This document shows, one piece after another, positions 9,298 through 24,969 of a stretch of 59,770 nucleotides of DNA (the stretch's first letter is position 1; each line of letters begins with the position of its first letter). Both the position numbers and the translations under genes were made by a program. The notes below the pieces were generated by a model. It did no database searches. It worked only from the letters and a program-made list of their open reading frames with translations, and had not been told where the DNA came from. Source of the stretch: an uncultured Bacteroidales bacterium (lineage in GTDB: Bacteria > Bacteroidota > Bacteroidia > Bacteroidales > F082); contig CAMYYB010000010.1 of the NCBI GenBank assembly GCA_947303335.1, positions 1-59,770 of the forward strand, given 5' to 3'.

Positions 9298-10518
9298 ATG
9301 AAAAAGACATTATTTATCACAGCTTTCATGGCCATCGCAGTTTGTGGCCAGTCGCAACAGCTATTAACCGTCAGCGGCAAGACCGAAGACGGCAAAAGAA
9401 TTAAAGTGGAATACTACAAGGGTACGAGCCAGGACCGTATCAAGTCGGTGAACTATGAACTGGTGGATGAGCTGAAGAATGAAAACAAAAGGCAGCAAAA
9501 CAGCATTAACGACCTGCAGTATCAGTTGAACAAGGCCAACAAGAGAATTGATGCCCTCAATGCCCAGTTGGAGAATGCCGGTAACGACGACCAGCTATCC
9601 AACCTGAATACCCAAGTCAACGTGAAGCAGGATGAAATCAGCAATCTGAACCGCCAGCTTGGTGAAAAGGATGCGCAATTGGAAATCCTGAGTGCTGAGA
9701 ACGAAAGACTGAAAGCCCAGTTGGACTCGATAAAAGCCGTGAACCTCAGAATCAGCCAAGCCCGCTCGGCCAAGACTCCGGCCGTCGGTGTGGAAGGCAG
9801 TTTGGGCGGTGTCGTTATGATGGGCAATCTCAACAATTCATGGGAGAAAGTGTTCTCCTTGAACAAGCAGTTGGCGGTGTATTATGGCACCGGACGGTTG
9901 ATGGAGAATTTCCCGCTATCGGTTGAGGTAGGATTGGGCTTCCGCAATCTCCCCATGTCGGCAAAAATCCACAAGTACACTTATAGTGGCACCACTCAGG
10001 ATGTCGACGGCGACGAGTTTACGCCTGTCTATGTCTTCGACAATTGCACGGAGAAGCTGTCGGTGAACTGCATAGAAGTGCCCATCCGACTCTGCTACGG
10101 CCAACCTATTGCTCACAAGGTGTCGTTTTATGCGAAATTAGGGGCAACGCCTTCGTTTATCCTCAACGCTCACTTGACCAACGGGGCATACACCATTAAA
10201 GGCAACTACCCTGATTGGGGGGTCACCTTGGAAGAGATTGAAGAGCTTGGCTTTTTCAATAACAGCGGCGATGGAGACAGGAAGGTGACGCCAGAGAGAC
10301 GCTTCAACCTGTGGGCTAATGCTGCCGTTGGTGCCTACGTCCCTTTGAGCTCCTCCTTGCTTTTCAATGTCGGGGCAAAAGTGGATTATCCCATCCTTTC
10401 GGCAAAAAGATACAACGTCGACGATGACCATCTATTCCTCCCGAATGGCTTGACTGAATACAACAATGGAATGCTCATTCCAAGTCTTCAGGCAGGTCTC
10501 GTATATAAATTGGATTAA
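9298..10518 (+). CDS. Outer-membrane beta-barrel protein with periplasmic coiled coil
   Basis: A 406-residue protein from the ATG at 9298, which directly precedes the signal peptide MKKTLFITAFMAIAVCGQS; an ATG at 9268 would add ten mostly Asn residues. Residues about 50-150 are a Gln/Asn/Glu/Leu-rich heptad coiled coil (LNAQLENAG, LNRQLGEKDAQLEILSAENERL). The rest alternates hydrophobic and polar residues as in an outer-membrane barrel (VGVEGSLGGVVMMG to the terminal AGLVYKLD). A coiled coil plus barrel suggests an outer-membrane anchor reaching into the periplasm. It sits 53 bases before the ubiquitin-like gene on the same strand, and I infer it is the outer-membrane part of the machine encoded downstream. 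Confidence 0.75.
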   Translation: MKKTLFITAFMAIAVCGQSQQLLTVSGKTEDGKRIKVEYYKGTSQDRIKSVNYELVDELKNENKRQQNSINDLQYQLNKANKRIDALNAQLENAGNDDQLSNLNTQVNVKQDEISNLNRQLGEKDAQLEILSAENERLKAQLDSIKAVNLRISQARSAKTPAVGVEGSLGGVVMMGNLNNSWEKVFSLNKQLAVYYGTGRLMENFPLSVEVGLGFRNLPMSAKIHKYTYSGTTQDVDGDEFTPVYVFDNCTEKLSVNCIEVPIRLCYGQPIAHKVSFYAKLGATPSFILNAHLTNGAYTIKGNYPDWGVTLEEIEELGFFNNSGDGDRKVTPERRFNLWANAAVGAYVPLSSSLLFNVGAKVDYPILSAKRYNVDDDHLFLPNGLTEYNNGMLIPSLQAGLVYKLD

Positions 10519-10571: not shown

Positions 10572-10898
10572 ATGGAAAACGAACAATCATTAAACGAAGA
10601 ATTTATCATCACATTGACAATTGAAGGTACTCAATACGAGGAAGTGGAAGTGGAAGTGACTGACCCGATGAAAACCATCCGCGAGCAAATCAACTCGATT
10701 GTGGAGGTCTTCCATCTTCCGAAAATGGACAATGGCGGCAATCCAATTACCTATCTTTTGGGACGCATTGAAGACGACAGCGACACGCCCGACATCCTCG
10801 AATTTGACGATGCCGACGGTCGCGAACAGACCTTAACGGACTATAATGTGCAGTCGGGCGACTGCCTTCACCTTATTGCCAGGGCTATTGCCGGATAA
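10572..10898 (+). CDS. Ubiquitin-like (beta-grasp) modifier protein
   Basis: A 108-residue acidic protein. After a short leader (MENEQSLNEE) residues 11-105 follow a beta-grasp pattern: FIITLTIEGTQYEEVEVEV (beta hairpin), PMKTIREQINSIVEVFHL (helix), then YLLGRIED, EFDDADGREQTLTDYNVQSGD (Ub-like 'L-D-Y-x-V-x-x-G-D' turn) and CLHLIARA. It ends A-I-A-G, with the C-terminal glycine directly before the stop, as needed for adenylation by an E1 without prior trimming. The next genes are an E2, a JAMM isopeptidase, a RING protein and an E1, which strongly supports a modifier role. The fold call resembles the YukD/ubiquitin superfamily; targets are unknown. Confidence 0.85.
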   Translation: MENEQSLNEEFIITLTIEGTQYEEVEVEVTDPMKTIREQINSIVEVFHLPKMDNGGNPITYLLGRIEDDSDTPDILEFDDADGREQTLTDYNVQSGDCLHLIARAIAG

Positions 10899-10919
10899 AA
10901 CCTAATAAACTTCTTGGTC

Positions 10920-11597
10920 ATGAATGAAGTTATCAACAAATTTGATTTGAAGAAGCTCTCGCCTCGCGATGCCTGTCTATGGAAAGAATGGAAGGAGCTT
11001 GACTCCTTATGCAGCAAGCGTAAAGCGAATAGTGCCAACCCGCGTGAGCCTTCCATCTCCTACATCATCAGGAAAAAGAACGCGATGGGGCTTCCCACGG
11101 AATACGAGATTTGGTATCGCGTCAAATCCATTATAGGCGTGAAGGGCTCGGTGGCTCCGCGTGAGCCTATCTTTGGCTATCTCCACAAGATGAGCATCGT
11201 GTTGCCCAACAACTACCCTTCGGCTGATGGCAACCCCATCTTCACTTTCCGCACTGACATCTGGCATCCCAACATCCGCTACTCCGGCAGTTTCAAGGGT
11301 CATGTCTGCCTCAACAGCAAGGACATGGGCGTGATGGCTTCACTGAAGAGCTTAGTACTCCGCGTGGAGCAGTACCTGAAATACAACGACTATCATGCCC
11401 AGAATGTCTATCCCTATCCGGAAGACCAGAATGTGGCTGAGTGGGTGCGTGAGGAAGCCGAGCCCAATGGTTGGACACGTTTCCCGCAAGACAAACCTGA
11501 ACCCGAAAGTCCAGAAAACGAGAGCAAGCCAGCCGTTGCCACGTCCCCTGAACCTAAAGTGACACCAGAAAAAATCAGAAGAGTACTAACGATATGA
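10920..11597 (+). CDS. E2-like ubiquitin-conjugating enzyme
   Basis: A 225-residue protein from the ATG at 10920 (a TTG lies two codons upstream). It has the core features of a UBC fold: a beta-rich first half, LPNNYPSADGNPIFTF (matching the 'P-x-x-YP-x-x-PP-x-F-F' element), the HPN motif at residues 116-118 and the active-site region GHVCLN with the presumed catalytic cysteine at residue 130 (bases 11307-11309). The C-terminal 45 residues are Pro/Glu/Lys-rich and probably disordered, like tails on some eukaryotic E2s. Known role of the family: it carries the modifier as a thioester and passes it to a lysine, with or without an E3. It lies 21 bases after the modifier gene, and its stop overlaps the next start by 4 bases. 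Confidence 0.9.
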   Translation: MNEVINKFDLKKLSPRDACLWKEWKELDSLCSKRKANSANPREPSISYIIRKKNAMGLPTEYEIWYRVKSIIGVKGSVAPREPIFGYLHKMSIVLPNNYPSADGNPIFTFRTDIWHPNIRYSGSFKGHVCLNSKDMGVMASLKSLVLRVEQYLKYNDYHAQNVYPYPEDQNVAEWVREEAEPNGWTRFPQDKPEPESPENESKPAVATSPEPKVTPEKIRRVLTI

Positions 11598-12679
11598 AGA
11601 AAATTTTGTTCGCCATCGTAGCCTGTTGCCTTGCTGTCAACGCGGCAATCGCTCAAGTCCCCTCTGAAATCACTCTTTCTGAAGATAAGCCTCAGGAAGA
11701 AATTCCCATCAGTGACAACCATCAAGAACACGGACGCATCTTCGTTAGAATGATTGGTGAACCTGACGACCAAGGCAATACATCGGTCAGAATTGAATTG
11801 CAGAACACCTCCAACGACTACTGTTTTCTTCTTTGCGACCATGCTTGGGACAAAAAAGAACTTCGGAAGAGCTTTATTTATTTTGATAAAGGATATTACG
11901 GCGAAACGACTCAGAAGATTGAGAATATTGGGATGAAAGGTATGCCCAATATCATTGAGGGCAATTCAGACGAAAAGTACACTTTCCCCGTTGTTAATGT
12001 TGGGGAAGGGACAGAACTGCAAGTCAGAATACCCGTCCACTTGGTCAAGCCGAAACCGGGGCTGTTTTGTAAGAAAAGAAAGATACTGTATGATGTGGTT
12101 TCTTGCACCCTCCGCATCACTGTGAACACGAGAGACCGGGTCTACGAAAACCTCCAGATGGAATGCGACTCGCTCTTCAGTGCTTTCAATGCGGCATTGG
12201 ATCGTAAGGAATTTTGTTCCAATCCTAAACATGATTTGTCATTGGAAGATCAAGCTGTAGAATACTTTGACGAGCGGCAAGAATTGGAAAGCAGAGTAGG
12301 GGAGTACTTTAGGAGTTGTTCAGCGAACAGCAAGAAATCCATTCGATATGAAGCCTTGTATGATTCTGTCCACAATATGAAACAAAAGATGGAAGAAAGG
12401 TTAGCGCAATACAAGCACGATTGCGGAGGACACGGGCCTAAGGTTCCCACAAGCTGCAAGTATTGTACCCTTAGCCTTGAGGACATCTCGAAGCAGATGG
12501 TGAACTTGTATTTTGACCTTTACAATAAAGATAAGACAAAAGCGGAAGTCTTGCCCATTGCGAATGCCCTTTACAATTGCTGCATCAACCACAAGAAGCA
12601 GGTGAGGCAGTGGGGCACCAGTGAATACAAAAAGACCATCGAGGATAATTATAAAAGTATCAAGAATTATCGACCATGA
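11594..12679 (+). CDS. Periplasmic protein of unknown function in the Ubl cluster
   Basis: A 361-residue protein with a clear signal peptide (MKKILFAIVACCLAVNAAIAQ) and no further membrane segment, so it is probably periplasmic. The first half looks beta-rich (GRIFVRMIGEP, TSVRIELQNTS), the second half helical. The second half contains paired cysteines (HDCGG, SCKYCTLS, YNCCINHKK), which could form disulfides outside the cytoplasm or bind metal. It shares an ATGA stop/start overlap with both the E2 gene and the following gene, a strong sign of translational coupling. I recognise no family. I infer a periplasmic component of the same complex. Confidence 0.65.
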   Translation: MKKILFAIVACCLAVNAAIAQVPSEITLSEDKPQEEIPISDNHQEHGRIFVRMIGEPDDQGNTSVRIELQNTSNDYCFLLCDHAWDKKELRKSFIYFDKGYYGETTQKIENIGMKGMPNIIEGNSDEKYTFPVVNVGEGTELQVRIPVHLVKPKPGLFCKKRKILYDVVSCTLRITVNTRDRVYENLQMECDSLFSAFNAALDRKEFCSNPKHDLSLEDQAVEYFDERQELESRVGEYFRSCSANSKKSIRYEALYDSVHNMKQKMEERLAQYKHDCGGHGPKVPTSCKYCTLSLEDISKQMVNLYFDLYNKDKTKAEVLPIANALYNCCINHKKQVRQWGTSEYKKTIEDNYKSIKNYRP

Positions 12680-13947
12680 ATAGCATTAGGGCAATCCTTG
12701 CGATGCTATTGCTTCTGCCCAGTCTTTTTGCCTCGGCCAAAGAAGTCACGGACACGCTTTATTCTGCCGAGAACGACAGGGTTATTGTAACTTATAGCAT
12801 CGTGCAAAAAGGCAATAGGGTTGATTTTGAAATCAAGAACGTCAGGAAACTGTTGGGTGATGAGCATCGCCGCAAATATGGCAAGGACCTCGGCAAAATC
12901 CTTACCATGTTCTTCGACGGGATTGGCGTTGGGAAAGATGTGAGATTTACCGGTGTGACCCCCGACATCATCACTTTGCCTTCCAAGGCTTCCTACACGA
13001 ATTCAAGCGACGGCTATTTCATCGTTGAGCAGTGGCCTGCCCTTTCTTTTGACCTGGAAGACACGAGGGGGAAGTGCTTTAGCATCCCCCTCTATCTTGT
13101 CCACTACGAGCGGAAGCAGCACTACAAGATCCTCTGTTCATGTGGCAACCTTGAAGTCACGATTCCGACAGGGGCCACCAAGTCGTCGACAGGGGCCTCT
13201 TCCTCTGCATCTTCCAGCAAGCCATCCTCGCGTCAACGTGGCGTTGAGTTGATAGAAATCGAAGAGGGATTGGACGAAGCCCAAGAGCAGGCACTCAATC
13301 TCATCAAGTCAATCTATAAAGACTTGCCTGAGCAAAACGCCCTGCCCATGTCAAGTACGCTTAAAAGGAAAATAGACAACCTCATCGACCTGCAGTCCAA
13401 GATAAAAAAAGAGGAAATTAGCAAAAAGATTGACGAGGTGCTTGAGGCTTATAATGCCAAGGAGAAAGAATTGCAAAAAGCCACGGCGGAAGCCAACGAG
13501 AAGAAAGCCGATGACGATGCTTTTAACAGTTGCAATACCCAAGAAGCGTATGAACAATACGTGAAACAGCATCCCGATGGCAGCCATGTGGAAGAGGCCA
13601 AGGCAAAGGCTGACGAGCTCAAGACCCAAGCTGAAGAAGAAGCGGCCAGCAAAAAGAGACGCAATATTTGGATGATCATCGGAGGAGTATTGTTGGCCAT
13701 CCTGCTCTTTGTAGGCAACCAGGCCATGCAAAGCTTCCGCAACATCCGTACCCAGCGCAGCATGATGCAAATGCAGCAAGATGCCACTAAACGAGCCCAA
13801 AGCATGGCCCAGAACAAGGCGAAAAGCGAAATACGCAAACAAACCAACAAAGCAGTCGGACAAGTCAAGAAAAAAAGTCAAACAGCCCTGCGCGACACAG
13901 CCGACAAAGTGAAAAGCAACAAAGGAAACAAGCGAATGTCAATTTGA
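12676..13947 (+). CDS. Bitopic membrane protein with periplasmic domain and Lys-rich cytoplasmic tail
   Basis: A 423-residue protein: signal peptide (MNSIRAILAMLLLLPSLFASA), a beta-rich periplasmic domain to about residue 160, a Ser-rich linker, then an acidic/basic coiled-coil region (residues about 195-330) containing an 'AYEQYVKQHPDGSHVEEAKAKA' type TPR-like helix pair. One membrane segment follows (NIWMIIGGVLLAILLFVG, about 334-351) and a strongly basic tail rich in Lys, Arg and Gln (351-423). Charge places the tail in the cytoplasm, on the same side as the E1, E2 and modifier. The many lysines make the tail a conceivable substrate, which is speculation. Start and stop are coupled tightly to neighbours (ATGA overlap upstream, 7 bases downstream). 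Confidence 0.65.
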   Translation: MNSIRAILAMLLLLPSLFASAKEVTDTLYSAENDRVIVTYSIVQKGNRVDFEIKNVRKLLGDEHRRKYGKDLGKILTMFFDGIGVGKDVRFTGVTPDIITLPSKASYTNSSDGYFIVEQWPALSFDLEDTRGKCFSIPLYLVHYERKQHYKILCSCGNLEVTIPTGATKSSTGASSSASSSKPSSRQRGVELIEIEEGLDEAQEQALNLIKSIYKDLPEQNALPMSSTLKRKIDNLIDLQSKIKKEEISKKIDEVLEAYNAKEKELQKATAEANEKKADDDAFNSCNTQEAYEQYVKQHPDGSHVEEAKAKADELKTQAEEEAASKKRRNIWMIIGGVLLAILLFVGNQAMQSFRNIRTQRSMMQMQQDATKRAQSMAQNKAKSEIRKQTNKAVGQVKKKSQTALRDTADKVKSNKGNKRMSI

Positions 13948-13954
13948 TTTTATT

Positions 13955-15679
13955 ATGAAACATTTTTTAAGTACTACTTCAGTTTTTTTATTCATGCTCC
14001 TTTTGCTACCGATTGGAGCAACAGCACAGGAAATCCCGCAAGTGGAGCCGAACGCTGACGGCTCCTATAATATGGAAACGGTTATCGAGACATTCAAATT
14101 ATACGTGGATGGTGTTGAAAACCTACCGAAGACTGATGATGAAATCAAGGATTTTGTTAGAACATTCCTGAAAAAAATGGGAGAAGACACGAATCCTAAA
14201 TTTGATGAAAAACTATATAGATATGGAGACGAGAATGCAGAACAGTTAGGAGATGCAGACGTGGAGTTTCAAATAGATCTGAAATGTGAGAATTATGTAA
14301 AAGAGAAAAAAACAGAAAAAGAAGCCAAGGCATCGGGTACGACACAGTCGAATGAGAAAGGGATGCCTCAAGAGAGAAAATTGCCTATGACCTATAAGCA
14401 ACTTGGCTTAAAGATAGGTGTACCCGTCGGTATCGTTTTGATTCTTGCCGTCATTGTCTTCTTGTTGGTCAAATCCAGAAAGAAAAAGAAAGAGAAAGTG
14501 GTTCCCGCAGGCGACATTCCTTCCGGGAATATCGAACCGGTCAACAATGACAATACTACTGGCACCAATGATGTCATTATCAGGCGTAAGACTTCGTCGG
14601 TCTTGCACAAACAAAGCCTTGACGACGTGCTCAAAGACCCCAATTACATGACGGTCGATTGCAGCGCTTTTTGCGATGATACGGCGGTGAAAAAGATGTA
14701 TATCAAGAACTCGGTCATCTTGGATATCTACAACAGGTATGCCGAGGATTTGAGGAACCCCAATAATCCGAAAGAGGACGGATGTATGGTGTTGGGCCGC
14801 TGGGTTCATAATGAGCAACTTGATGCCTATGACGTCTCTTTGGAAGAAGTGGTCTTCCCGGGTGATGATGCCGTTTTCGCGGAATATGAACTGGACTTTG
14901 GAGGCAAAATCAAGGTCAAGGTCAACGAGAAGCTCCGCAAACTGCGCCGCGAGTCCAATCTTCAGTATGACATGACTTGCTGGGTGCATTCGCATCCCGG
15001 CTTGGGGGTCTTTTTCAGCAATACGGACTGCAGCCTGCATATCCTGCACAAACATCCCACCCATCCCAAGTTCCTCACGGCCATTGTGATTGACATCCTT
15101 ACGCCGAAGCAGGACTTGGGCATCTTCACCTTCAAGCATGACATGACCATCAATTCAAAAAATGATATCAAACAACTCTACTCTTTGGAGGAATGGTACA
15201 AGTGGGCAGTGGAAAACAAACGCACCTCGGTCGTCTATGAAGAGCATTTCAATACGCTTGAGACAGCCAAGTCGAGGAACAGCGCGTGTTACAACGTTCA
15301 GCTGTCCAACGACCCTATTATCGACATGAATACAATTGCCAACGACCCTGAACGTAAGAACCTATATTTTGTTCATGGTTTCTCAACCACGCAATCGGAA
15401 CAAACCACCAACATAGCCGTGAAAATTAAAGACACCGACACCATGATTGATAACGAATTGATAGGATGCTTCATGGTGGTGGCCCATCGCAGTTATCCGA
15501 CCATCAAGAAGGTGGTAGCCAACTATTTAGATAAAGTTAAATTCATCTTGGTGTATTCCACTGCCGACGGAATGCTTTCCACTATTCCCGTCGTCGGAAA
15601 CGACCTTTGTAGCGATGAATCATTTTATGGAGAACAACCCTTAGAAGAACTCAAGATATGGACAAGAAGAAAAAGATAA
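13955..15679 (+). CDS. Membrane-tethered JAMM/JAB-domain isopeptidase (deubiquitinase-like)
   Basis: A 574-residue protein: signal peptide (MKHFLSTTSVFLFMLLLLPIGATAQ), a short periplasmic region, one membrane segment at about residues 150-173 followed by KSRKKKKEK, which places the rest in the cytoplasm. The JAMM zinc-protease motif is complete: E274 (in KEDGCMVLG) and H345-x-H347-x7-S355-x2-D358 (HSHPGLGVFFSNTD). Established: JAMM enzymes such as Rpn11 and bacterial relatives cleave the bond after the C-terminal glycine of Ubl modifiers. About 200 residues follow the JAMM core and look like a second alpha/beta domain I cannot name. Since the modifier already ends in Gly, the likely task is deconjugation rather than maturation. 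The last 22 bases overlap the start of the RING gene. Confidence 0.88.
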   Translation: MKHFLSTTSVFLFMLLLLPIGATAQEIPQVEPNADGSYNMETVIETFKLYVDGVENLPKTDDEIKDFVRTFLKKMGEDTNPKFDEKLYRYGDENAEQLGDADVEFQIDLKCENYVKEKKTEKEAKASGTTQSNEKGMPQERKLPMTYKQLGLKIGVPVGIVLILAVIVFLLVKSRKKKKEKVVPAGDIPSGNIEPVNNDNTTGTNDVIIRRKTSSVLHKQSLDDVLKDPNYMTVDCSAFCDDTAVKKMYIKNSVILDIYNRYAEDLRNPNNPKEDGCMVLGRWVHNEQLDAYDVSLEEVVFPGDDAVFAEYELDFGGKIKVKVNEKLRKLRRESNLQYDMTCWVHSHPGLGVFFSNTDCSLHILHKHPTHPKFLTAIVIDILTPKQDLGIFTFKHDMTINSKNDIKQLYSLEEWYKWAVENKRTSVVYEEHFNTLETAKSRNSACYNVQLSNDPIIDMNTIANDPERKNLYFVHGFSTTQSEQTTNIAVKIKDTDTMIDNELIGCFMVVAHRSYPTIKKVVANYLDKVKFILVYSTADGMLSTIPVVGNDLCSDESFYGEQPLEELKIWTRRKR

Positions 15680-18078
15680 GCCTCATGAAAGCTTTATTCA
15701 TCAGTGTGTTGCTTGCCTTGGCTTTTCCCATCCTGGCGCAAGACGTCAACCAGATTAAATTTGGAGGTGGTAAATATGACAATAAACCAGGGTGTGACAG
15801 CATCACGCTTTATCTGAAATTAACCGAATCAAACGGAAATCGAATCGAAGATATTGTTCCCTCTGATTTGAAGAACCACTTCACCTTTGTGGAAAACAAG
15901 GATACCATTCCCAATAAGAAGTGGAAGGCCAGTCTCCTCACAGGTGGCCAACGCATCCCCGATGACTTTACCATCTCGGTGTTGGTGGACCTCAGCATTC
16001 CGGAAAGCGGCAAGGAGGACATCTATAAAGCGGTGAAGACTTTGGTTGACATGGCCTCCGATAGCAGCGTTTACCTTTCTTTCTTTGGCGATCAGGTAAG
16101 CAATAGCCGCTTGGTCAACAAAAACAACTATTCGGAGTTTCATGGTCGTTTCATGGATATGGCCAACAACAAGTTCTTTTATAGCGCCCTGTATGCCAAA
16201 CTGACCGAGTTTAATCATGGGGAAGCTCAATATGTCGACCAAATCAAATCGTCTGGTTACAAGAAAGTGGGAAAGATTTGTGAAAGGGCTGAAAAAAGCG
16301 TTGAAAAAGAGGAAAACAACAACTTGCTTTTCATTTTCACAGGAGGCAACGAGAATCCTCAAAACGAGGAACTGAACTTCACACAAATCGTGGAATACTT
16401 TGACGCTGCGCTCATCCTGCCAAGAGTGTATGCCTTCTATTACGTTGCTGAAAACCAAATGGATGAGGATGTGGAGAGAGTATTGAAGGCGGTCACTCGT
16501 CCTCAAAATAGCGATCATGAACTGCGTGCTGAGAGTAAGGGGGATTATAAGCCTTCCAATAACATTGATGCTGTTGTAAGTGGTTTCCAACAAGTCGTCA
16601 GAAACGAGATGTACGACTTCGCGCTCACCTATCAGGTTGGGGAGAACAAGAAATATACCGGTAGGGTAGACTATACTGCGCTTTGGGATGGCGAAGCTAA
16701 AGGAGCGGGAACCTTCTCGGTGGGTGCGGAAGAGGACCCGTGGCCGAAACGTCATGAAACCGCAGGTGACTCAGCCAAGAAATACCTGGTTGCCTTGTTG
16801 GTGGCCTTTCTGACCTGCTTGCTTTTTATCGCCATCATGAAAATCATCGTGCCTGGGGTAAAATCGGCCATTTTCTCTGCAAAATATCACAAGAAGTACA
16901 AGATTGTGGAGAATGTCAGGACTCTGGTCTGTCCGCTATGCCGATGCGAGATTCTTCCCGGGCAAAGGGTGGTGAACCGATGCCGACACATCATGCACGT
17001 CAAGTGCTGGAAGGCCAACGGCTTTAAATGTGTTGAATATGGACAGAACTGCAAAGAGGGTATACAAGACCATGTCCATTGGGAAAGCCTCTTCAGCAAG
17101 GAAACCCTTATGGATTGCTTCCTGACTATCATGGGCATTTGCGCCAGTTTGGTCAGCTGGGTCATCTACGAAGTTACAGGAAGAGGGTTTTTCGGTGATT
17201 TTGCCAAGCATTTTGTCAACGCTTTCTTCAAAACAGATGGTGAAGTTGTGGGCATTGTTGAAAGTTGCGTTACCAAAGTGTCTTCATTCCTTACCATCGG
17301 TCTGCTGTTGGGCTTTTTCCTTTCGTTCACCTTTAGGTTTTTTGACGGTGCAAAGCGCAGGGACTTCAAATGGTTTCTTGAAATCACAGGTTTGTCCTTG
17401 CTTTCGGGTGTCATAGGTATGGCGGCTTTTACCCTTGGTAGCGTTGTCTTGTGCTTGTGGGTGTCGCCTGCCGACTCGTTTATCCCGAGTTATTGTTCCT
17501 TCCCGGCCTATCTGCTGTTTTCGGTATGTATCTCACTCAGTCTTATCATCAGATCAACTATTCCTTTCAAAAGTGCCTTTTTGGGTGGTCTTGTATCGGC
17601 CATCATCGGTTTCATAGTGCTGTATTTCTCTGACAAAATGCAATATTTTTCAGCCAGAAACAATTCTCGTCCGTGGATGACTATGTTGCTCAATTTCGTC
17701 ATCTATGGTGGCGGACTTGGTGCCTCGTTGCTCACTGTCAGAATGTTGGCAGAGAAATATTTCCTCATTGTCAAAAACGGTATCCGCAGCGGATTGCGCA
17801 TTCCCATCCATAAATGGATGAACGCCGGAAACATGGTCACCATTGGCATGACCCAACAATGCGAGATCCAGATGGCCTGGGAGAAGAGCAATAAGGTGGC
17901 CAAGGAGCACGTGCAGCTTTATGTGGACCAAAGCCGGTCGCAAGCCATGCTGAGGCCGATGGCTCCCACCACATTCAATTTGCGTGCCGAACTTGGGGCC
18001 AGCAACAAGCCGGTGCCGCTGTTTAATGGAGATACGTTCAAGATTGGCGACACGATTTTCGAATATGTTGAAAACTGA
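15658..18078 (+). CDS. Polytopic membrane protein: periplasmic vWA-like, cytoplasmic RING-H2-like, FHA-like C-terminus; E3 ligase candidate
   Basis: An 806-residue protein. After a signal peptide (MKALFISVLLALAFPILAQ) residues about 25-370 resemble a vWA domain, with a MIDAS-like strand ISVLVDLS (Asp111) and LLFIFTGG, though the motif is imperfect (DLSIP rather than DxSxS). A first membrane segment at about 376-397 leads to a cytoplasmic Cys/His cluster with RING spacing: C425-x2-C428, C442-x-H444-x2-H447-x2-C450, C458-x6-C465. Six hydrophobic segments follow (about 480-710). The last 80 residues, from GNMVTIGM to NGDTFKIGDTIFEYVEN, look like a degenerate FHA domain. In this context I infer a RING-type E3 in the inner membrane that can sense the periplasm (vWA) and possibly phospho-proteins (FHA). 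An alternative is that the zinc cluster is structural only. Confidence 0.8.
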   Translation: MDKKKKISLMKALFISVLLALAFPILAQDVNQIKFGGGKYDNKPGCDSITLYLKLTESNGNRIEDIVPSDLKNHFTFVENKDTIPNKKWKASLLTGGQRIPDDFTISVLVDLSIPESGKEDIYKAVKTLVDMASDSSVYLSFFGDQVSNSRLVNKNNYSEFHGRFMDMANNKFFYSALYAKLTEFNHGEAQYVDQIKSSGYKKVGKICERAEKSVEKEENNNLLFIFTGGNENPQNEELNFTQIVEYFDAALILPRVYAFYYVAENQMDEDVERVLKAVTRPQNSDHELRAESKGDYKPSNNIDAVVSGFQQVVRNEMYDFALTYQVGENKKYTGRVDYTALWDGEAKGAGTFSVGAEEDPWPKRHETAGDSAKKYLVALLVAFLTCLLFIAIMKIIVPGVKSAIFSAKYHKKYKIVENVRTLVCPLCRCEILPGQRVVNRCRHIMHVKCWKANGFKCVEYGQNCKEGIQDHVHWESLFSKETLMDCFLTIMGICASLVSWVIYEVTGRGFFGDFAKHFVNAFFKTDGEVVGIVESCVTKVSSFLTIGLLLGFFLSFTFRFFDGAKRRDFKWFLEITGLSLLSGVIGMAAFTLGSVVLCLWVSPADSFIPSYCSFPAYLLFSVCISLSLIIRSTIPFKSAFLGGLVSAIIGFIVLYFSDKMQYFSARNNSRPWMTMLLNFVIYGGGLGASLLTVRMLAEKYFLIVKNGIRSGLRIPIHKWMNAGNMVTIGMTQQCEIQMAWEKSNKVAKEHVQLYVDQSRSQAMLRPMAPTTFNLRAELGASNKPVPLFNGDTFKIGDTIFEYVEN

Positions 18079-18083
18079 TTGAA

Positions 18084-19283
18084 ATGAACGAACAAAACAA
18101 ATACGAATGGGGAGAGGGCGTGTTCACGCTGCTTTCCTGGTTCAAGAAAGACAAGGTGAAAAACGCTCGCGTCCTCGTGGTCGGTGCCGGTGCCCTTGGC
18201 AATGAGGTTGTAAAAGACTTGGCACTTTTCGGCGTGGGCCATATCTATGTGGTTGACTTCGACCAGATTGAATTATCCAATCTTACCCGTTCTGTACTCT
18301 TCAGAGAAGAAGATGCTTACAACCATTCGTACAAGGCCGAAATCGTTGCCAAAAGGGCTATGGAAATCAATCCTCAAATCAAGGTCATCCCCTTTGTCGG
18401 CAACCTGCTCTCGGAGGTTGGTTTTGGTATCTATCGCATGGTGGACGTGGTCATCGGATGCCTTGACAGCCGCATAGCCCGTTATCAGCTGAATCGTTTG
18501 TGCATGCGTGCGGGAAAATCATGGGTTGACGGAAGCATTGAGAATATGACCGGGTCGGTCCAGGTGTATACTCCTGGTGTGGCGTGTTATGAATGTGGCC
18601 TTTCGCGCGACGAATTCAACCATATCATGGTTCGGACGGGATGTGCCGATGTGGTCAACCTTCAGAGTTCTGCCGGACGTGTGGCTACAACGCCAATCAG
18701 CGCCTCCATTATCGGTGCCATTGAAGTGCAGGAAGCCATGAAGATCATCCATCTCGACACCGAGGCGGCTTCACAATTCAAGACGCTTCAGGGGAAACTA
18801 TTGCATTATGAGGGTCTGACCAATAGCACCAATGTGTATAAGTTTGCATCGTGGAAAAACACTTGTACGGCGCATGAGCGTTGGGAGCCTGTCATCGAAG
18901 CCCCGAATCTGTCGGCCACCCAAACCGTGCGGGAGACCTTGTCGGCTTTAAAATCATTGCTTCAGGTCGAAAATGTTGAAATCAACATGTGCAACAACAA
19001 GTTTGTTGATGTAGTGGTCTCCGACAAGCCAGAGAAGGAATTCAAAGTGATGGTTCCCGATTCACAACTTGACCGTTACATGAGCGCCAATGATGAATTG
19101 AGGAAGCTCCGTTATATCACCACCTTCCACAAATCGTTTTTCGAAAACATCGATGCCGAGTTTCCGTATCAGGACCTCACGCTCCAGCAGATTGGCATTC
19201 CGCTCTTCGATGTTCTCCAAGTGTCGACCGAGAAAGGCTTGTTCCACGTTGAACTGGATGCCGATGCCCACCTGTTTCTTTAA
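18084..19283 (+). CDS. E1-like ubiquitin-activating enzyme (ThiF/MoeB/UBA family)
   Basis: A 399-residue protein. The adenylation domain is clear: GAGALG at residues 34-39 (ATP), VDFDQIELSNLTRSVLF (Asp and Arg of the family), and GCLDSRIAR (Asp for Mg/ATP). A C-x2-C pair (C168, C171) probably binds zinc with later cysteines. C187, in RTGCADVV just before the 'ATTPISASIIGAIEVQEAMK' segment, stands where E1/MoeB proteins have the catalytic cysteine or crossover loop. The last 120 residues, outside the adenylation domain, may be a ubiquitin-fold-like E2-docking domain (LTLQQIGIPLFDVL). It should adenylate the C-terminal Gly of the modifier and hand it to the E2. It begins 5 bases after the RING gene and is followed 12 bases later by baseplate genes. 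Confidence 0.9.
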   Translation: MNEQNKYEWGEGVFTLLSWFKKDKVKNARVLVVGAGALGNEVVKDLALFGVGHIYVVDFDQIELSNLTRSVLFREEDAYNHSYKAEIVAKRAMEINPQIKVIPFVGNLLSEVGFGIYRMVDVVIGCLDSRIARYQLNRLCMRAGKSWVDGSIENMTGSVQVYTPGVACYECGLSRDEFNHIMVRTGCADVVNLQSSAGRVATTPISASIIGAIEVQEAMKIIHLDTEAASQFKTLQGKLLHYEGLTNSTNVYKFASWKNTCTAHERWEPVIEAPNLSATQTVRETLSALKSLLQVENVEINMCNNKFVDVVVSDKPEKEFKVMVPDSQLDRYMSANDELRKLRYITTFHKSFFENIDAEFPYQDLTLQQIGIPLFDVLQVSTEKGLFHVELDADAHLFL

Positions 19284-19295
19284 CAGCCTTTGCCT

Positions 19296-20177
19296 ATGCT
19301 TCCTAAAAATATTCCCGAAGACATCAACATAGAAGTCCTTTTGCCGTTTTTCCCGGAAGGGCAGTGCAAAGTAGCTTTTACGGGAACACATAAACGCAAC
19401 GCCTACAATGATTTTATGGGATTGGAGGAATTGTCCAAAGATACCATGCAACTTCATGTGGGTCGCGCTAGCTTATACAACGCATTGCCTGAATTGCTGT
19501 TTCACCCCATTGACCGTTTCGACAATCTGTCGTCGAAGGTTGACAAGGAAAAGTTCGAAGCGGAATATGAAGCGCAGGAACGCGAGAAAGAACAGGCTCA
19601 CAAGTTTTTCGCTCCGTTTGACTTGTTGCTGTTGCAACTCCGTATGCGGATTAGGGAACGTCTGGACGTGTATGCTGAGACTGACAAGATAATGATTGAT
19701 CTTTTGGGCTATGGTATAACAGAAGCTCAAAAGCAAAATCGTTTCGTCAGGAAGACACTTCCCTTTCTTCCCTACTGCAAGTCGATTAGAGGCAACAAGA
19801 CCTATCTGACCTTGATGCTCCGTAAAGTCTTGATGGAAGAAGGTTTAAGTATCATTGTTTGCGATGAGAAGCACACCTTCACCGATGCTTCTCCCAGATA
19901 CAACATACAATTAGGGCCGGAAGCCGACTGTTTGTATCTTGGTGACACATACGTTGGACAAGCCATCACCTACCATATTCACTTTTGGTCGGAGGCCGAG
20001 TGCGATGAGTCTTTTTTGCAATTTGTAGAGGAACTGGAGACCTTCCGCAAGTTCATCCAGGATTATTATTTGGCTGTGGATGGGATTCTGAGGTTTGATG
20101 TCTGTCATGACGAAGAACCGCTGAGATTGTCGGATGAAATGAAATACAATTATTTGAATTATAATACGAACATCTAA
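19296..20177 (+). CDS. TssG-like T6SS baseplate protein (tentative)
   Basis: A 293-residue protein from the ATG at 19296 (a TTG at 19290 is possible). It has no signal peptide. Residues about 50-75 read LHVGRASLYNALPELLFHP, similar to the 'YDxLPxxLFH' element I associate with Bacteroidetes TssG/baseplate proteins. A helical block with many charged residues (residues 80-130) is followed by DLLGYGI and LPFLPYCKSIRGNKTYLTLMLRKVL. The identification rests partly on context, since the next three genes are TssK-, TssE- and TssF-like and these proteins form one baseplate wedge in T6SS. If this is not TssG it is an unassigned member of the same complex. Confidence 0.55.
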   Translation: MLPKNIPEDINIEVLLPFFPEGQCKVAFTGTHKRNAYNDFMGLEELSKDTMQLHVGRASLYNALPELLFHPIDRFDNLSSKVDKEKFEAEYEAQEREKEQAHKFFAPFDLLLLQLRMRIRERLDVYAETDKIMIDLLGYGITEAQKQNRFVRKTLPFLPYCKSIRGNKTYLTLMLRKVLMEEGLSIIVCDEKHTFTDASPRYNIQLGPEADCLYLGDTYVGQAITYHIHFWSEAECDESFLQFVEELETFRKFIQDYYLAVDGILRFDVCHDEEPLRLSDEMKYNYLNYNTNI

Positions 20178-20182
20178 ATACT

Positions 20183-21415
20183 ATGGAAAAAAGAATATGT
20201 TGGAAAAAGGGAATGCGTCTGACGGATGACATCATGAGAGCCTCAGAGGACGCCACTATGGCTCGTGTTGCTACAGCCATGACTTTGGCTTCAGTAGGAC
20301 GTTTTGGATTGCTTCCGGGTCCACGTCAGTTCCAGATTTCACTGAATCTCAACGCCAACTATGTCGAAGTGCTGACGTTGGATTGCCTCGCCGTCACCCG
20401 TGGAGGCTTTCTTATAGACGTGCAAATGGATACAAAATATTCGAATTATTTTGATAACCGGGTTGCCATTCCAGACGAAATGGGGAAAGGGGAAATGCTT
20501 CTAACCATTAGCGTAGACACAAAACAATGGAAAGAAACCTTGAACGGGTACGAGGAACCAACTTATACTTTTCATCTCGTTGGCATCAATAGCCCCATAC
20601 CCGACAATGCCTTGCCCATAGCTCACCTCGTTTACTCGGAACAGATTAGAGTATGGCATATTGACGAGGTAGAATTTGTGCCCCCCTGTCTTTTTGTGTC
20701 ATCCCATCCCTATTATACGGAGTTGATGAATCGGTTCATACAGATTCTGTCCGAGATTGAGGACAAGGTGTTCCAATGCTTGAAAACGAACACACATGCA
20801 GTATTCCCGATTCTTTGGCCTGTGGTTCAACAAATTCTCATCGACACCGATAAGAACCGCGATTTGATGACTCCTAATGCCTTATACGGTAACCTGCAAA
20901 AATTTGTCGCCATATTCACTGCGGCTTGTCGTCTCGACTCAGGTCTCAACTTGAGCGATGCCGATATGTTCAGGAATTATGCCCTCGCCCCATATAACTA
21001 TATGGATGTTTATCCAAGGTTAAAAGAAGGGATGAGGCTCAGTTTTCTCATCAATGAGAAAGTGGACAAGATTATTGGTGAGCAACCCTATGAACCCAAG
21101 GTTAATAACAAACTGGAAGCCCCCTATATTGAAGACGACCAGTTGTACCAGACTTGCAAGACCTCTGTTTCAACCCTTCCCATTGTCAACAACGTGTCGG
21201 GAGCAACTGTGTACTATTCGATTGACGGCAGTAAGCCTACCAAGCCGGTCACGAATGGGAAAGTCAGAATAAAAAATACGTTCCATCCAAATAAAGAGAA
21301 GGAAGAAGATCAGGAATGCATCGTTAAACTAAAGGCTGTACTTAACGACGCGGAGAGCGACGTTAGCACCTTTACGGTCATACTTCACAAAGCTAAAGAC
21401 TATATTAGAATCTAA
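20183..21415 (+). CDS. tssK: TssK-like T6SS baseplate adaptor with C-terminal chitobiase-like domain
   Basis: A 410-residue protein. The N-terminus RICWKKGMRLTDDIMRASED fits the 'W-x-x-GM-x-L-x-P-x-x-F' start of TssK. It continues with VEVLTLDCLAVTRGGFLIDV and later SSHPYYTELMNRFIQILSEIEDKVF, both in the positions where TssK has its shoulder domain and helical stem. Known role: TssK links the T6SS baseplate to the membrane complex. Residues about 325-405 look extra: VYYSIDGSKPT is the signature of a chitobiase/hexosaminidase C-terminal-type beta domain, an unusual addition that could replace the usual TssK docking head. It sits 5 bases after the preceding gene and 5 before the next. Confidence 0.68.
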   Translation: MEKRICWKKGMRLTDDIMRASEDATMARVATAMTLASVGRFGLLPGPRQFQISLNLNANYVEVLTLDCLAVTRGGFLIDVQMDTKYSNYFDNRVAIPDEMGKGEMLLTISVDTKQWKETLNGYEEPTYTFHLVGINSPIPDNALPIAHLVYSEQIRVWHIDEVEFVPPCLFVSSHPYYTELMNRFIQILSEIEDKVFQCLKTNTHAVFPILWPVVQQILIDTDKNRDLMTPNALYGNLQKFVAIFTAACRLDSGLNLSDADMFRNYALAPYNYMDVYPRLKEGMRLSFLINEKVDKIIGEQPYEPKVNNKLEAPYIEDDQLYQTCKTSVSTLPIVNNVSGATVYYSIDGSKPTKPVTNGKVRIKNTFHPNKEKEEDQECIVKLKAVLNDAESDVSTFTVILHKAKDYIRI

Positions 21416-21420
21416 ACCCA

Positions 21421-21927
21421 ATGAGTTTCATCAGTACGCCGTTGGCTTACCAAGACTTTTCGACTGAACCTCATATCAAACGAGATTTGGAGTCGGAGTT
21501 TGAGTATCTTGACAATCTCCTGGAACTTATCGCTTTCACTCCACGAGGCAGCTTTTATGCCGACCCCGATTTTGGATTCGAGTATTGGAACCACGAGTAT
21601 TCCAATATTCAGTACCGGACCTTCAATAGTGGCCACATTGGACTTATGGGTGGCAAGGTTAATCAGGAAGTGACTAAATTGGATTGTCAGGAAAGTATAC
21701 GTCAGAGTTTGCAGACCTACGCACCACAGTTGACAAAAGTGGAGGTTGCTGTTGAACTCAATGCGGCTCAATATGGCGAGCGTCTGCGAAAGAGCAATGT
21801 CCATTCAAAGCATATCGTCAGTATTGTTGTCGCAGGTGAATTGGATAACGGGATAGCGACCAGCCATTACAAGAAGAAAATAGAGTTCCTGATGGAACCC
21901 TCAGCAAAGAAATATATTTCCATTTAA
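21421..21927 (+). CDS. tssE: TssE/gp25-like baseplate wedge protein
   Basis: A 168-residue cytoplasmic protein, close to the usual size of T4 gp25/TssE. It starts with a short leader, then DLESEFEYLDNLLELIAFTPRGSFYADPDFGFEYW, matching the gp25 pattern of an N-terminal helix, 'T-x-x-G-S-x-x-x-x-P-x-x-G' and the baseplate wedge fold. After that come SIRQSLQTYAPQLTKVEV and a strand-rich end, as in the family. Known role: gp25/TssE connects the first sheath ring to the baseplate. A sheath is therefore expected somewhere, but none is encoded in this window. Confidence 0.72.
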   Translation: MSFISTPLAYQDFSTEPHIKRDLESEFEYLDNLLELIAFTPRGSFYADPDFGFEYWNHEYSNIQYRTFNSGHIGLMGGKVNQEVTKLDCQESIRQSLQTYAPQLTKVEVAVELNAAQYGERLRKSNVHSKHIVSIVVAGELDNGIATSHYKKKIEFLMEPSAKKYISI

Positions 21928-21945
21928 CAAATAAGATTTGACAAG

Positions 21946-23727
21946 ATGGATTTAGAATTGCAAAACAAAGTTAATGACACCCTCGAACAACTGAAAAAAT
22001 ATTCCATCGACGGCTTTGAATTCCAACAAATGGATCCTGTCGCCAAGATGATGTTTGTCGCTTTGGTGTATGAAATCCAGAAGATATATGACCATATTGA
22101 CAGTATTAATGACCGCATTGTAGAACGGTATTGTACGGATTTCATTCCCCGGCAGGAAGTGGAAGCCGTACCCGCCATCGCTTTGCTTCAACCGTCGTTC
22201 AAGTCCAATAAAGACAATGAAGGCTTTTCGATAGGAGCAGGGACTCAGTTTTCATATAAAACAGCCCCCAAGCCTATCAACTATATTCCACTGTTCAACA
22301 CGTTGACGCTTCCGTACGCTGAGATAATCCTTGTGCATCAAGACAACGAGTATTGCAAAAGCGTGAATATGTACAAACCTAATCGGCTATGGGTTGGCAT
22401 CAAAACCAATGTTGAAATCGAGTGTATACAAGGTCTGTCACTCTTTATCACAGGAACTAACGGGGTGATGCCCGAGCATATTTATGTGGGTGTTGAGAAT
22501 CATGAGCTTGACTTTGCCACACCGAAAGAAATGGAACAGGTGGAAATGGTGGAACCCTTTGATGCGCAACAAGCATCCGGGCAGTTCTTCTCGTTTTTAG
22601 GTATCTGGAAGGAATGCTTGCTCAATATGAAAGAAGGCTCGTTACTCTTCATCACGGATGAAACAAGCAACCGAGATTTGTTTAAGCCAAGGGCTTACCC
22701 AAAGACGTTTGAGCAATGGAACCTGACGGACACATTGGAACAATTCGAGATGGCAAAACCGGTTTGGCTTCGAATAGAATTCCCGGAGGGGTATGTCGTC
22801 CCTGAGGATAGCGAGGTGATGCTCAATGTCATCCCAGTGGTCAATGTCGATGTGTGTTCGCTGACGCTGAGCGACCATGCCCCTATTGCCAAATTGCAAA
22901 AAACAGAAGACTCATTCTTTTTGCGGGTTCTTGAAACAAGTGTGGCTTCCAATAAACAAGGGTTCGGAATGTTGAACGATGAAGTCATCATTCGAGATTT
23001 TGATGCTTCATGCTATCATAACGGTGACCTTTATCGGGACATGCGCAATTTATACAACAGGTTCGTTGACGACTATTATGCTTTCATGGAGTACAATGAG
23101 ATTAAAGACGAAAAGACCCAAAAACTGTTGCGTGAAACCATAAACAAAATTGCCAACAACAATAGCATCAAGGAGCCCAATGACAAATTCAAATTTGACA
23201 GCGGTACCTACGTGATGAAGAACTTGAGGCAGAATCCCTCAAGCTCATCCATTAAAGTGAACTATATCACTACTCAAGGCGAGGCCGGCAATTTGCCACA
23301 GGCGGGCGAGATAATGGAAAACAAGAAGGTACCCGTGTTTAACCAAAAAGTCCCTGTCTTAGTTTCCGCTATGGGAGGCGCTGATAAGGCTTCGGCTGAC
23401 GAACGCTATGAGCTGCTTCGTTATTATTCGCTTACCAACGACCGGCTTTATACCAAAATGGATATTGATGCTTTTCTGCGTAAAGAGATTATGCGGGAAT
23501 TTGGTCAAGAGGAGTTTAAGCGCATCATCATCAACATAAACGTAGAGGGTGTCGGCGGTGAAACAACAGTACAAAGAGGTCTTTATATCGACATCTGTTT
23601 TAAGGACACCAAGAATTATATAAGAGCCAAGGGCATTTCCTTTGACAAACTTATGAAACAAAGAATAGTGAATAAGTCGTGCATCGCCATGCCGATTATT
23701 GTAGAACTTAGAAATTTGGAGGAATAG
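21946..23727 (+). CDS. tssF: TssF-like T6SS baseplate protein
   Basis: A 593-residue protein of the normal TssF length. The N-terminus is typical: DPVAKMMFVALVYEIQKIYDHID, then VERYCTDFIPRQEVEAVPAIALLQPSF and IGAGTQFSYK. These match the TssF pattern in which a helical start with 'D-P-x-x-x-x-L' is followed by 'P-x-x-E...P-s-x-a-l-l-q' and 'l-x-x-G-t-x-f'. The C-terminal part ends with a strand-rich section (FKRIIININVEGVG). It has no signal peptide. TssF together with TssG and TssE makes the wedge of the T6SS baseplate. It lies 18 bases after the TssE-like gene and 2 before the next. Confidence 0.75.
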   Translation: MDLELQNKVNDTLEQLKKYSIDGFEFQQMDPVAKMMFVALVYEIQKIYDHIDSINDRIVERYCTDFIPRQEVEAVPAIALLQPSFKSNKDNEGFSIGAGTQFSYKTAPKPINYIPLFNTLTLPYAEIILVHQDNEYCKSVNMYKPNRLWVGIKTNVEIECIQGLSLFITGTNGVMPEHIYVGVENHELDFATPKEMEQVEMVEPFDAQQASGQFFSFLGIWKECLLNMKEGSLLFITDETSNRDLFKPRAYPKTFEQWNLTDTLEQFEMAKPVWLRIEFPEGYVVPEDSEVMLNVIPVVNVDVCSLTLSDHAPIAKLQKTEDSFFLRVLETSVASNKQGFGMLNDEVIIRDFDASCYHNGDLYRDMRNLYNRFVDDYYAFMEYNEIKDEKTQKLLRETINKIANNNSIKEPNDKFKFDSGTYVMKNLRQNPSSSSIKVNYITTQGEAGNLPQAGEIMENKKVPVFNQKVPVLVSAMGGADKASADERYELLRYYSLTNDRLYTKMDIDAFLRKEIMREFGQEEFKRIIININVEGVGGETTVQRGLYIDICFKDTKNYIRAKGISFDKLMKQRIVNKSCIAMPIIVELRNLEE

Positions 23728-23729
23728 AT

Positions 23730-24959
23730 ATGAAAAAAATATACAGTGCCTCAGCAAATCCTCGATTCGACAATAATGTTTTAATTGTCCAACGCCAACT
23801 GAATAGTATTAAGTCCGCATTGCTTCACACTCTTCCTACGATTAAGGAAGATGGTTTATATGGTGAAGAAACGGAGAAGGCTATTAAAGTTTTCCAACAA
23901 ATATGCAATATTTCTGCTGATGGCAAATTAGGGCCACAGACCTCTTCTTGTATATCGCAAAAACTAAGGGAAATGCCCAGTATAGGTGTCGCAGTGCCAA
24001 AGTATTACATAAGTGATGCGTCACCTAAGTATTACATAAGTGATGCATCGCCTAAATATTACATTAGTGCTGCCTCGTCTAAAACCAAAGGAAAAACGAA
24101 AAATAGCTTTTCGCTGTACGATGAGGCTGATCAGTTTGTTGGAGCGGTTATTGATTTCAACTCAACGTTAAAGACTGTTGCAGGCAATGTTGCCACGCTC
24201 AAGAACCCGGCTCCAGAAATGGTGTTTCGTTGTTTCAAGGGAAGCCTTGAAACAATTGACCCGACATTGAAAAGAATGCAAGAGTCCTTGTCCAAATACC
24301 ATCATCATAAAAGCAATAGTACCGTATCTGCTGATACGTTGAAAATGGCTAAAAGTAACTCTATCCATCCCAGTCTTCAAGGCCGTGCTGCTGCCCAATC
24401 TGTCAGTATGGCTAAAACCAGTGAGAGGATGACCAAGTATTTCATGAAGGAAGTTACCAACGCAAAAGATGCCATATTGAACAATCTATATCGATATGAT
24501 TTTGTGTCAAAAATCGGTTCAAAACTGAAAGCGATGGGGCTGTCAGGTAAAGTCGATTTGTCAAAAGTGAACATAAAGGGAGGGTTGGTTGGTATTGGCT
24601 TTATCTATTCATTAAAAGACATCATTTGGGACATCTTCCATATTGCTGATTTGTTTGATGAGACAAAAAAGGAGGCATGGCTTAAGGATTTGCAAAAAGA
24701 CTGCTATGACTTTCTTGACTCTTTGATTATCGGATGTGTTTCCTGCTTTTTAGCACAGCTAATTGTAGTCGGAGGTGCGGCCTTGGCGGGTCTGACCGTC
24801 TCATCGGGTACCATCCTAGTGGCTATTGTGATTGTTGCACTTATTATCGGACTTGTTTTCAGCTATGTATTAAGCTCAAATGACATCTCTTTTACAAGAT
24901 TCGTTTTTGAAGATTGTGCAGAGTTCATTATAAGTAAGATTTATGGTGTTTCACTGTGA
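23730..24959 (+). CDS. Peptidoglycan-binding-domain protein with hydrophobic C-terminus; possible effector or envelope component
   Basis: A 409-residue protein with no signal peptide. Residues about 15-85 form a peptidoglycan-binding domain 1 (VQRQLNSI, EDGLYGEETEKAIKVFQQICNISADGKLGPQT). A triple nonapeptide PKYYIS[DA]AS follows (residues 90-116), then a helical Lys/Ser-rich region. The last 90 residues contain two strongly hydrophobic stretches (LIIGCVSCFLAQLIVVGGAALAG and TILVAIVIVALIIGLVFSYVL) separated by a turn, like a membrane-inserting hairpin. A cytoplasmic protein with a wall-binding module and a C-terminal membrane hairpin would suit a payload of an injection system, or a wall-anchored part of the machine. 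Neither is shown. It starts 2 bases after the TssF-like gene. Confidence 0.6.
   Translation: MKKIYSASANPRFDNNVLIVQRQLNSIKSALLHTLPTIKEDGLYGEETEKAIKVFQQICNISADGKLGPQTSSCISQKLREMPSIGVAVPKYYISDASPKYYISDASPKYYISAASSKTKGKTKNSFSLYDEADQFVGAVIDFNSTLKTVAGNVATLKNPAPEMVFRCFKGSLETIDPTLKRMQESLSKYHHHKSNSTVSADTLKMAKSNSIHPSLQGRAAAQSVSMAKTSERMTKYFMKEVTNAKDAILNNLYRYDFVSKIGSKLKAMGLSGKVDLSKVNIKGGLVGIGFIYSLKDIIWDIFHIADLFDETKKEAWLKDLQKDCYDFLDSLIIGCVSCFLAQLIVVGGAALAGLTVSSGTILVAIVIVALIIGLVFSYVLSSNDISFTRFVFEDCAEFIISKIYGVSL
23997..24077 (+). repeat. Three 27-bp tandem repeats within the peptidoglycan-binding protein gene
   Basis: Three copies of a 27-base unit at 23997, 24024 and 24051, encoding PKYYISDAS, PKYYISDAS and PKYYISAAS. 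The repeats form a linker between the wall-binding domain and the helical part; copy number may vary. Confidence 0.85.
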
Positions 24960-24969
24960 AAACCGACCA

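Follow-up and report, generated by a model that had tools for sequence, protein, structure and literature searches.

A ubiquitin-like conjugation cascade encoded within a type VI secretion gene cluster of an uncultured Bacteroidales bacterium

We analysed a stretch of 59,770 nucleotides (the window) of contig CAMYYB010000010.1 (C10), from assembly GCA_947303335.1 of an uncultured Bacteroidales bacterium (F082). It encodes a ubiquitin-like conjugation cascade running directly into baseplate genes of a type VI secretion system (T6SS). T6SSs are molecular syringes, in known cases fired at other bacteria. There is good support for regarding the cascade and the T6SS genes as one system, because the gene content is shared by 11 genomes, lies on one contig in nine of them, has correlated tree distances, and shows co-occurrence of the activating enzyme (E1) with the sheath protein TssC. 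We consider it possible, at a probability of about 0.45, that this is a T6SS subtype in which membrane-located conjugation of the ubiquitin-like protein (Ubl) docks or licenses the baseplate. This reading is supported by gene content, gene order, conserved residues, baseplate homology, correlated inheritance and the failure to detect TssN.

The genes from Ubl to TssF form a single run on the + strand at 10572-23727. A preliminary description had listed a run with a Ubl ending in Gly, a conjugating enzyme (E2), a JAMM protease, a membrane RING-like protein and an E1, and we confirmed its open reading frames, order and strand. That list also included the baseplate genes, and it overlooked two secreted or membrane proteins between E2 and JAMM (11594-13947). 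The joints are short or overlapping, as had been said. They measure +15, -4, -4, +7, -22, +5, +12, +5, +5 and +18 bases along the run, the +12 before TssG becoming +6 if TssG starts at TTG instead. Scans of the run found no excess of promoters (26 vs 25.5 in shuffles) or terminators (16 vs 16.4).

The Ubl (10572..10898, +) has 108 amino acids and ends in RAIAG, with IAG kept in 8/8 aligned copies (our alignments hold 10 copies each of E1 and RING, and 8 each of E2, JAMM and Ubl). Its Pfam score of 17.9 bits is below the 25.4-bit cut-off. Its AlphaFold model, made from a 44-row alignment (pLDDT 80.9, pTM 0.65), reaches a Foldseek probability of 1.00 against ubiquitin variants, Caldiarchaeum ubiquitin and FAT10, and the final Gly is invariant across the 44 chosen rows. 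We found 261 Ubl relatives and scored the C-termini of the best 120. The Gly is terminal in 110 of these, 4 have two or four residues beyond it (SF twice, AC, YLVV), like ubiquitin precursors, and 6 are without it, one being seemingly truncated. The ubiquitin fold and C-terminal Gly expected of a Ubl conjugation pathway are therefore both present. A second Ubl gene lies upstream of the normal one in G030 (L026:17961-18884), where IAG is replaced by IAV and the frame continues into a 200-aa domain with no Pfam match.

As for the enzymes, the E1-like protein (18084..19283, +) has 399 amino acids and one adenylation domain, seen as a single ThiF stretch (Pfam ThiF 4e-49). Its GAGALG motif, Cys187, C168, C171, C261 and H264 are invariant in 10/10 aligned copies; the E1 of G277, outside the alignment, lacks the CYxC pair. 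The E1 profile finds UBA7 (3e-31) and SAE2 (5e-28) in the PDB, and more weakly Citrobacter BubCD (4.5e-11). The E2-like protein (10914..11597, +) carries a WHPNI motif and has a Cys in the catalytic position, residue 132 from the TTG start and 130 from the next ATG, in line with the HPN and Cys130 first reported. WHPN and this Cys are invariant in 8/8 copies. The Pfam UQ_con match (7.4e-6, 26.1 bits) is just under the cut-off of 27, and the E2 profile finds eukaryotic E2s in the PDB (3.8e-7). E1 and E2 with catalytic residues, as a conjugation pathway requires, are thus present. The membrane-anchored JAMM protease-like protein (13955..15679, +) has the motif HSHPGLGVFFSNTD, which fits HxHx7SxxD as described before. 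Its E274, H345, H347, S355 and D358 are invariant in 8/8 copies, and its profile matches RPN11 (8e-8) and CSN5 (3e-7) in the PDB.

The next protein, a predicted E3 (15658..18078, +), combines a VWA domain, a transmembrane (TM) helix, a RING, several further helices and an FHA-like end. All eight Cys/His zinc-type ligands of the RING are invariant across 10/10 aligned copies. The part before the TM helix takes a VWA fold in the model (Foldseek probability 1.00 against integrin I and VWF A domains); the whole model has pLDDT 72.8, with residues 717-788 below 50. The C-terminus scores 13.6 bits for FHA, below the 20.7 cut-off, and we call it FHA-like because the domain passes the cut-off in the G584 relative (FHA 33.5 vs 20.7 bits; VWA 29.2 vs 23.8). 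At E 1e-20 this protein has 600 relatives in the protein database, 120 of them among the matches listed; one relative, with 50% identity, is named Phocaeicola sp. A Pfam note (Burroughs et al. 2011) reportedly places certain bacterial RING proteins that have TM helices near Ubl genes, so the proximity of such proteins to Ubl genes may be already known.

Hydropathy shows an N-terminal hydrophobic stretch in four proteins of the run. SP1 (11594..12679, +), a predicted secreted protein with homologues in the same position in L023, L025, L026 and L071, has this stretch only. SP2 (12676..13947, +; homologues in L023-L026 and L070) adds one predicted helix at 333-351. The JAMM protein adds one at 154-172, both of its hydrophobic segments lying ahead of the JAMM domain. 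Finally, the RING protein has a helix at 380-398, immediately before the RING, and several between 485 and 694. We infer that the VWA domain is periplasmic and that the RING and JAMM domains are cytoplasmic.

The baseplate genes are TssG-like (19290..20177), TssK-like (20183..21415), TssE/gp25-like (21421..21927) and TssF-like (21946..23727), all on the + strand. Standard profiles recognise them poorly. Pfam gives sub-threshold values for TssK (0.018) and TssE (0.0062) and no T6SS family for TssG and TssF; among NCBIfam T6SS models there is no match for TssG and TssF, and TssK (TIGR03353, 1.6e-7) and TssE match below cut-off only. Comparison with the T6SS-iii of G135, which is cascade-free and has TssN, is more informative. 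By hhalign, TssF matches its counterpart at 99.3% (7e-21), TssG at 98.3% (2.5e-14) and TssK at 97.2% (3e-11). The TssK similarity spans residues 4-199 in this comparison, and 4-199 or 4-204 overall, the remainder having no detected counterpart. Hidden Markov models (HMMs) built from cascade-linked proteins only also find the G135 proteins (TssF 7e-29, TssG 1e-22, TssK 4e-13, TssE 4e-9). The TssE assignment rests on these HMM hits and on a relative in L027 that is above the gp25 cut-off (27.6 vs 27.2 bits). G135's own proteins behave similarly against Pfam, with TssF (1.5e-4) and TssG (3.7e-3) below cut-off, gp25 above it and no match for TssK. The profiles thus place all four as T6SS-iii baseplate homologues, their baseplate character being as first proposed, and speak against their belonging to other families.

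The gene order recurs in other Bacteroidetes. We examined 14 genomes with the cascade, namely 11 with a T6SS (G000, which is the window's own genome, G277, G001, G004, G019, G020, G029, G030, G081, G213 and G422) and three with an extracellular contractile injection system (eCIS; G051, G490, G584). The 11 T6SS genomes share the same gene content and belong to 5 families. With core HMMs built partly from those same loci, Ubl, E2, E1 and nine T6SS-iii core genes (TssB, C, D, E, F, G, H, I and K) were found in 11/11, RING in 10 and JAMM in 9; Pfam found TssC and VgrG in 7/7 T6SS carriers queried. Tail genes, cascade and baseplate lie on one contig in 9/11 carriers, from 4 families (G001, G004, G019, G020, G029, G030, G081, G213, G422), in the order ClpV-TssB-TssC-TssD-VgrG-(effectors)-Ubl-E2-SP-(SP2)-JAMM-RING-(OMP)-E1-TssG-TssK-TssE-TssF, where OMP is an outer-membrane-barrel-like protein. 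The content of the VgrG-to-Ubl interval varies between loci. Since ClpV, sheath, tube and VgrG lie upstream on the same contig, the T6SS cluster enclosing the cascade is complete. The baseplate proteins of these loci share only ~20-25% identity, and the recurrence of the order at such divergence is therefore not due to chance.

The tail genes are on a separate contig from the cascade and baseplate in G277 and in the window's own genome, a metagenome-assembled genome 71% complete. Here contig C3 (L059) carries, within 11 kb of its start, ClpV, TssB, TssC (7e-132), two TssD, VgrG, a DUF4280-PAAR protein and a PoNi immunity gene, which completes the nine core genes with those of the window. C3 and the window start have no exact end overlap of at least 15 bases, so we deduce from the relatives how the two are joined in this genome. 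Because these relatives carry a whole T6SS, the window baseplate, the only part of the machine noted in the preliminary description, is very likely part of a complete weapon. The DUF4280-PAAR protein (L059:399-2435) has a C-terminal extension and is followed by the PoNi-type immunity gene.

Counting the own genome in each case, a full-length E1 of this kind is present in 8/60 relatives and in 7/36 genomes of the genus, E1 in 6/393 genomes sampled from the order, and the RING protein in 3/395 sampled from the phylum. TssC is present in 17/393 of the order sample and accompanies E1 in 5/6 carriers (Fisher 5e-7, uncorrected for genome relatedness). In the sixth carrier, G051, genes for an eCIS-type sheath, tube and VgrG are found on a different contig. 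Among plasmids, 17 records matched E1 and none covered 80% of the query.

We then compared the inheritance of the two parts. Unrooted FastTree trees split the cascade T6SSs, together with G293, from the other sampled T6SS-iii (support 1.000 for TssC, 0.945 for TssF). Distances of E1, RING, TssC and TssF correlate with r 0.86-0.95 (E1-TssC r 0.864, n=11; RING-TssF r 0.950, n=12; permutation p 1e-4). The E1 and RING of G081 cluster with those of G051, G490 and G584, as would be expected if G081 were basal or had gained the cascade separately. One gain of the cascade followed by loss in G293 is the simplest history, separate gains in different lines being the alternative.

TssN (PF17555) was detected in 0/11 cascade T6SS genomes and in 7/12 cascade-free TssC genomes (Fisher 0.0046, uncorrected for relatedness). 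A survey of 443 T6SS-iii (PMC10781749) describes TssN as nearly ubiquitous and shows its binding to TssK. It gives T6SS-iii as the only T6SS type found in Bacteroidota, with the membrane complex, whole or in part, in all systems. TssR (PF17643) was found in 0/11 cascade genomes and in only 4/12 cascade-free ones; its probe missed 4/7 TssN-bearing genomes, and therefore its absence adds little. Similarly, a single-protein TssP probe gave full-length matches only in G054, G179, G274 and G343, also missing the TssN-bearing G135, G285, G320 and G322. The same survey (PMC10781749) assigns a ubiquitin-like fold to TssN, in its cytoplasmic domain, and a VWA domain to TssR. Where the canonical machine has a hub with a Ubl fold and a lipoprotein with a VWA domain, the cascade T6SS thus has a Ubl that is free and a membrane protein that contains a VWA domain. 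We treat this parallel, between the Ubl and VWA-RING protein on one side and the TssN hub and TssR lipoprotein on the other, as an analogy, the VWA domains showing no homology: the RING-protein VWA was tried as a homologue of the TssR VWA and rejected (hhalign probability 1.1%).

Related modules accompany eCIS genes, whose types include Afp, PVC and AlgoCIS. G490 and G584, from another family of the class, have the order E1-Ubl-E2-JAMM-RING, with Ubls ending in VPG and VPGGK and an E2 that retains HPN and Cys. The module contig carries eCIS-type sheath, gp19 tube, CIS_tube, VgrG-like and gp25 genes in G490 (Pfam) and homologues of these in G584 (BLAST). The sheath gene lies ~22 kb from E1 in G490 and ~44 kb in G584, which does not imply the same cluster throughout. 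A PAAR gene lies ~2 kb from the module, beyond an nSTAND NTPase gene (Pfam: PAAR in both, nSTAND in G490). A contractile injector is therefore present in each of the 14 examined cascade genomes. The G051 module adjoins SrfB/SrfC genes; around it (L031, L034) we also saw a subtilase and a second JAB and Ubl-like pair. TssR-family proteins occur at L099:16472-18994 and L112:758-3280 in two eCIS-bearing genomes, where the Ubl module is ~16 and ~21 kb away.

Judged from sequence, the Ubl is predicted to tag the machine itself and would likely control its assembly or firing, two of the roles first suggested, alongside recycling and cargo. In the docking reading, E1 would activate the Gly-ended Ubl and E2 would then carry it. 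The RING protein, probably spanning the inner membrane with its VWA domain in the periplasm, would recruit E2 and substrate there, and the Ubl would be attached at this membrane to a cytoplasmic machine part, likely the baseplate. The attached Ubl may then dock or license the baseplate, the job ascribed to TssN in ordinary T6SS-iii, until JAMM strips it and the machine is released or recycled. A stricter form is more tentative and somewhat unlikely. In it, the TssN beta-grasp hub would have given way to covalent baseplate modification, made by an inner-membrane VWA-RING ligase and reversed by the membrane JAMM, and eCIS would use such modification in parallel.

Several observations weigh against baseplate docking. 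The T6SS of G293 belongs to the clade of the cascade T6SSs, but both the cascade and TssN are undetected there; the cascade is therefore not indispensable. TssN is also undetected by PF17555 in the cascade-free G274, G282, G305 and G366, so its absence is not specific. JAMM is missing from the unbroken locus of G001, and only three of the eight ligands are left in the RING of G584, which is eCIS-linked and outside the alignment. No T6SS-iii baseplate genes lie beside the modules of G051, G490 and G584; the cascade can therefore exist without a T6SS, and the eCIS context counts against docking. The unity of cascade and T6SS first proposed holds in that neither half comes and goes freely without the other, G293 and these three modules being the exceptions. 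At the G293 locus (L084-L085), without a match for Ubl cascade, TssN or TssR, an M23 peptidase precedes TssG, and an FHA protein and kinases are nearby.

Other roles of the cascade are also conceivable. The Ubl might tag cargo, with effectors or spike modified for loading onto or release from the injector; the fact that Ubl follows the VgrG/PAAR/effector block in each of the 9 contiguous loci, the Gly-less second Ubl of G030 with its added domain, and the PAAR gene near the modules of G490 and G584 would agree with this. We think it unlikely, as the interval genes vary while the cascade stays, membrane-bound RING and JAMM point to a membrane site, and no conserved acceptor was identified. It is likewise improbable that the VWA-RING-FHA protein senses the outside and that Ubl conjugation and a kinase switch on firing, leaving the baseplate untouched. 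The VWA fold, the FHA domain of the G584 relative and a kinase gene downstream in L023-L026 and L070 suit such envelope or contact signalling, whereas the phosphothreonine-binding positions of the FHA motif are not kept across the RING-protein alignment, and a kinase HMM had no match in the fetched stretches of G001, G004, G020, G029 and G213.

It is doubtful that the Ubl acts non-covalently or as a sulfur carrier, with the E1 and E2 homologues as scaffold or regulatory parts. YukD, a Ubl of a secretion system, is reported as unconjugated (PMC1779556), and the window Ubl weakly resembles it (0.0041, Pfam); against this stand the conserved active-site residues of E1, E2 and JAMM and the Gly end of most scored relatives. 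Very unlikely, lastly, is a Bil- or Bub-like defence cascade hitch-hiking in a T6SS island. Ubiquitin-like conjugation is reported to operate in an anti-phage system (PMC10097602), and PADLOC E1-E2 models match our E1 (3.3e-15). PADLOC at 0.01 has no match for Ubl, E2, JAMM or RING, however, and the position inside the T6SS cluster is kept across several families with correlated distances.

Compared with known systems, the machine shares homologues of TssB, C, D, E, F, G, H, I and K with the T6SS-iii of Bacteroidota (PMC10781749). It differs in that TssN is undetected, TssG and TssK being adjacent without TssN between them, and in that its cluster also encodes a Ubl cascade and a membrane protein of VWA-RING type. 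Ubl, E1, E2 and JAMM likewise share an operon in BilABCD systems. Their hallmarks (PMC11354881) are a BilA of two Ubl domains and a BilD with an inactive and an active adenylation domain. These are not seen here, where the Ubl is a single domain, E1 has one domain, RING and JAMM are membrane proteins and a T6SS is present. Bub-type operons are related through E1, as the BubCD match indicates, but E1 and E2 are separate genes here. Bub-type operons are not known to be linked to a T6SS. Unlike the eCIS-associated modules, the window system has a T6SS-iii sheath, tube and ClpV. The YukD/EccD type VII system also has a ubiquitin-fold protein in a secretion system, its component list in the excerpt of PMC1779556 being without E1, E2 or JAMM. 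Among the open-licence PMC papers listed in literature searches, no title or abstract start gave a sign of a Ubl cascade within the gene cluster of a T6SS or eCIS.

Finally, we looked at the genes around the run. Upstream, a coiled-coil and outer-membrane-barrel-like protein, the OMP (9268..10518, +), is likely part of the system, having homologues near the cascade. One lies directly 5' of Ubl in L025, and others between RING and E1 in L027, L028, L029, L072 and L077. Downstream follow a variable gene with a PG-binding domain and C-terminal hydrophobic helices (23730..24959, +; Pfam PG_binding_1 5e-11), a glucosaminidase-LysM protein (24943..25953, +; Pfam 6.7e-36), in the same position in L023-L026 and L070 and likely serving local peptidoglycan opening, and a Ser/Thr kinase (34032..35558, +; Pfam Pkinase 7.7e-35), whose gene adjoins the glucosaminidase gene in the same five relatives. 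The joint between TssF and glucosaminidase varies, holding the PG-binding gene in the window, a lipase-like gene in L023 and L025, a gene without assigned identity in L026 and no gene in L024. This joint may be an effector exchange site and its gene a cargo. Three giant proteins with InlB-type B-repeats and Por tails for secretion lie at 25981-34000 and 4048-9255, two of them separating the glucosaminidase and kinase genes that are neighbours in L023-L026. Within 115-3005 we found a Lipase_3-like protein and a DUF2931 gene. The C-terminal part of the former reappears in L023 and L025, in the cassette on the TssF side, and the latter is present too upstream of Ubl in L026.

These T6SSs form a T6SS-iii clade in which TssN is undetected and a eukaryote-like E1-E2-RING-JAMM set lies in the cluster of a contractile weapon. 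If the conjugation is real, this would be a new way of controlling injection machines and would offer a simple genetic system for the role of ubiquitin-type tagging outside eukaryotes. Should the replacement of TssN also prove true, it would be the first case of a secretion machine that relies on a ubiquitin-type cycle for docking and firing.

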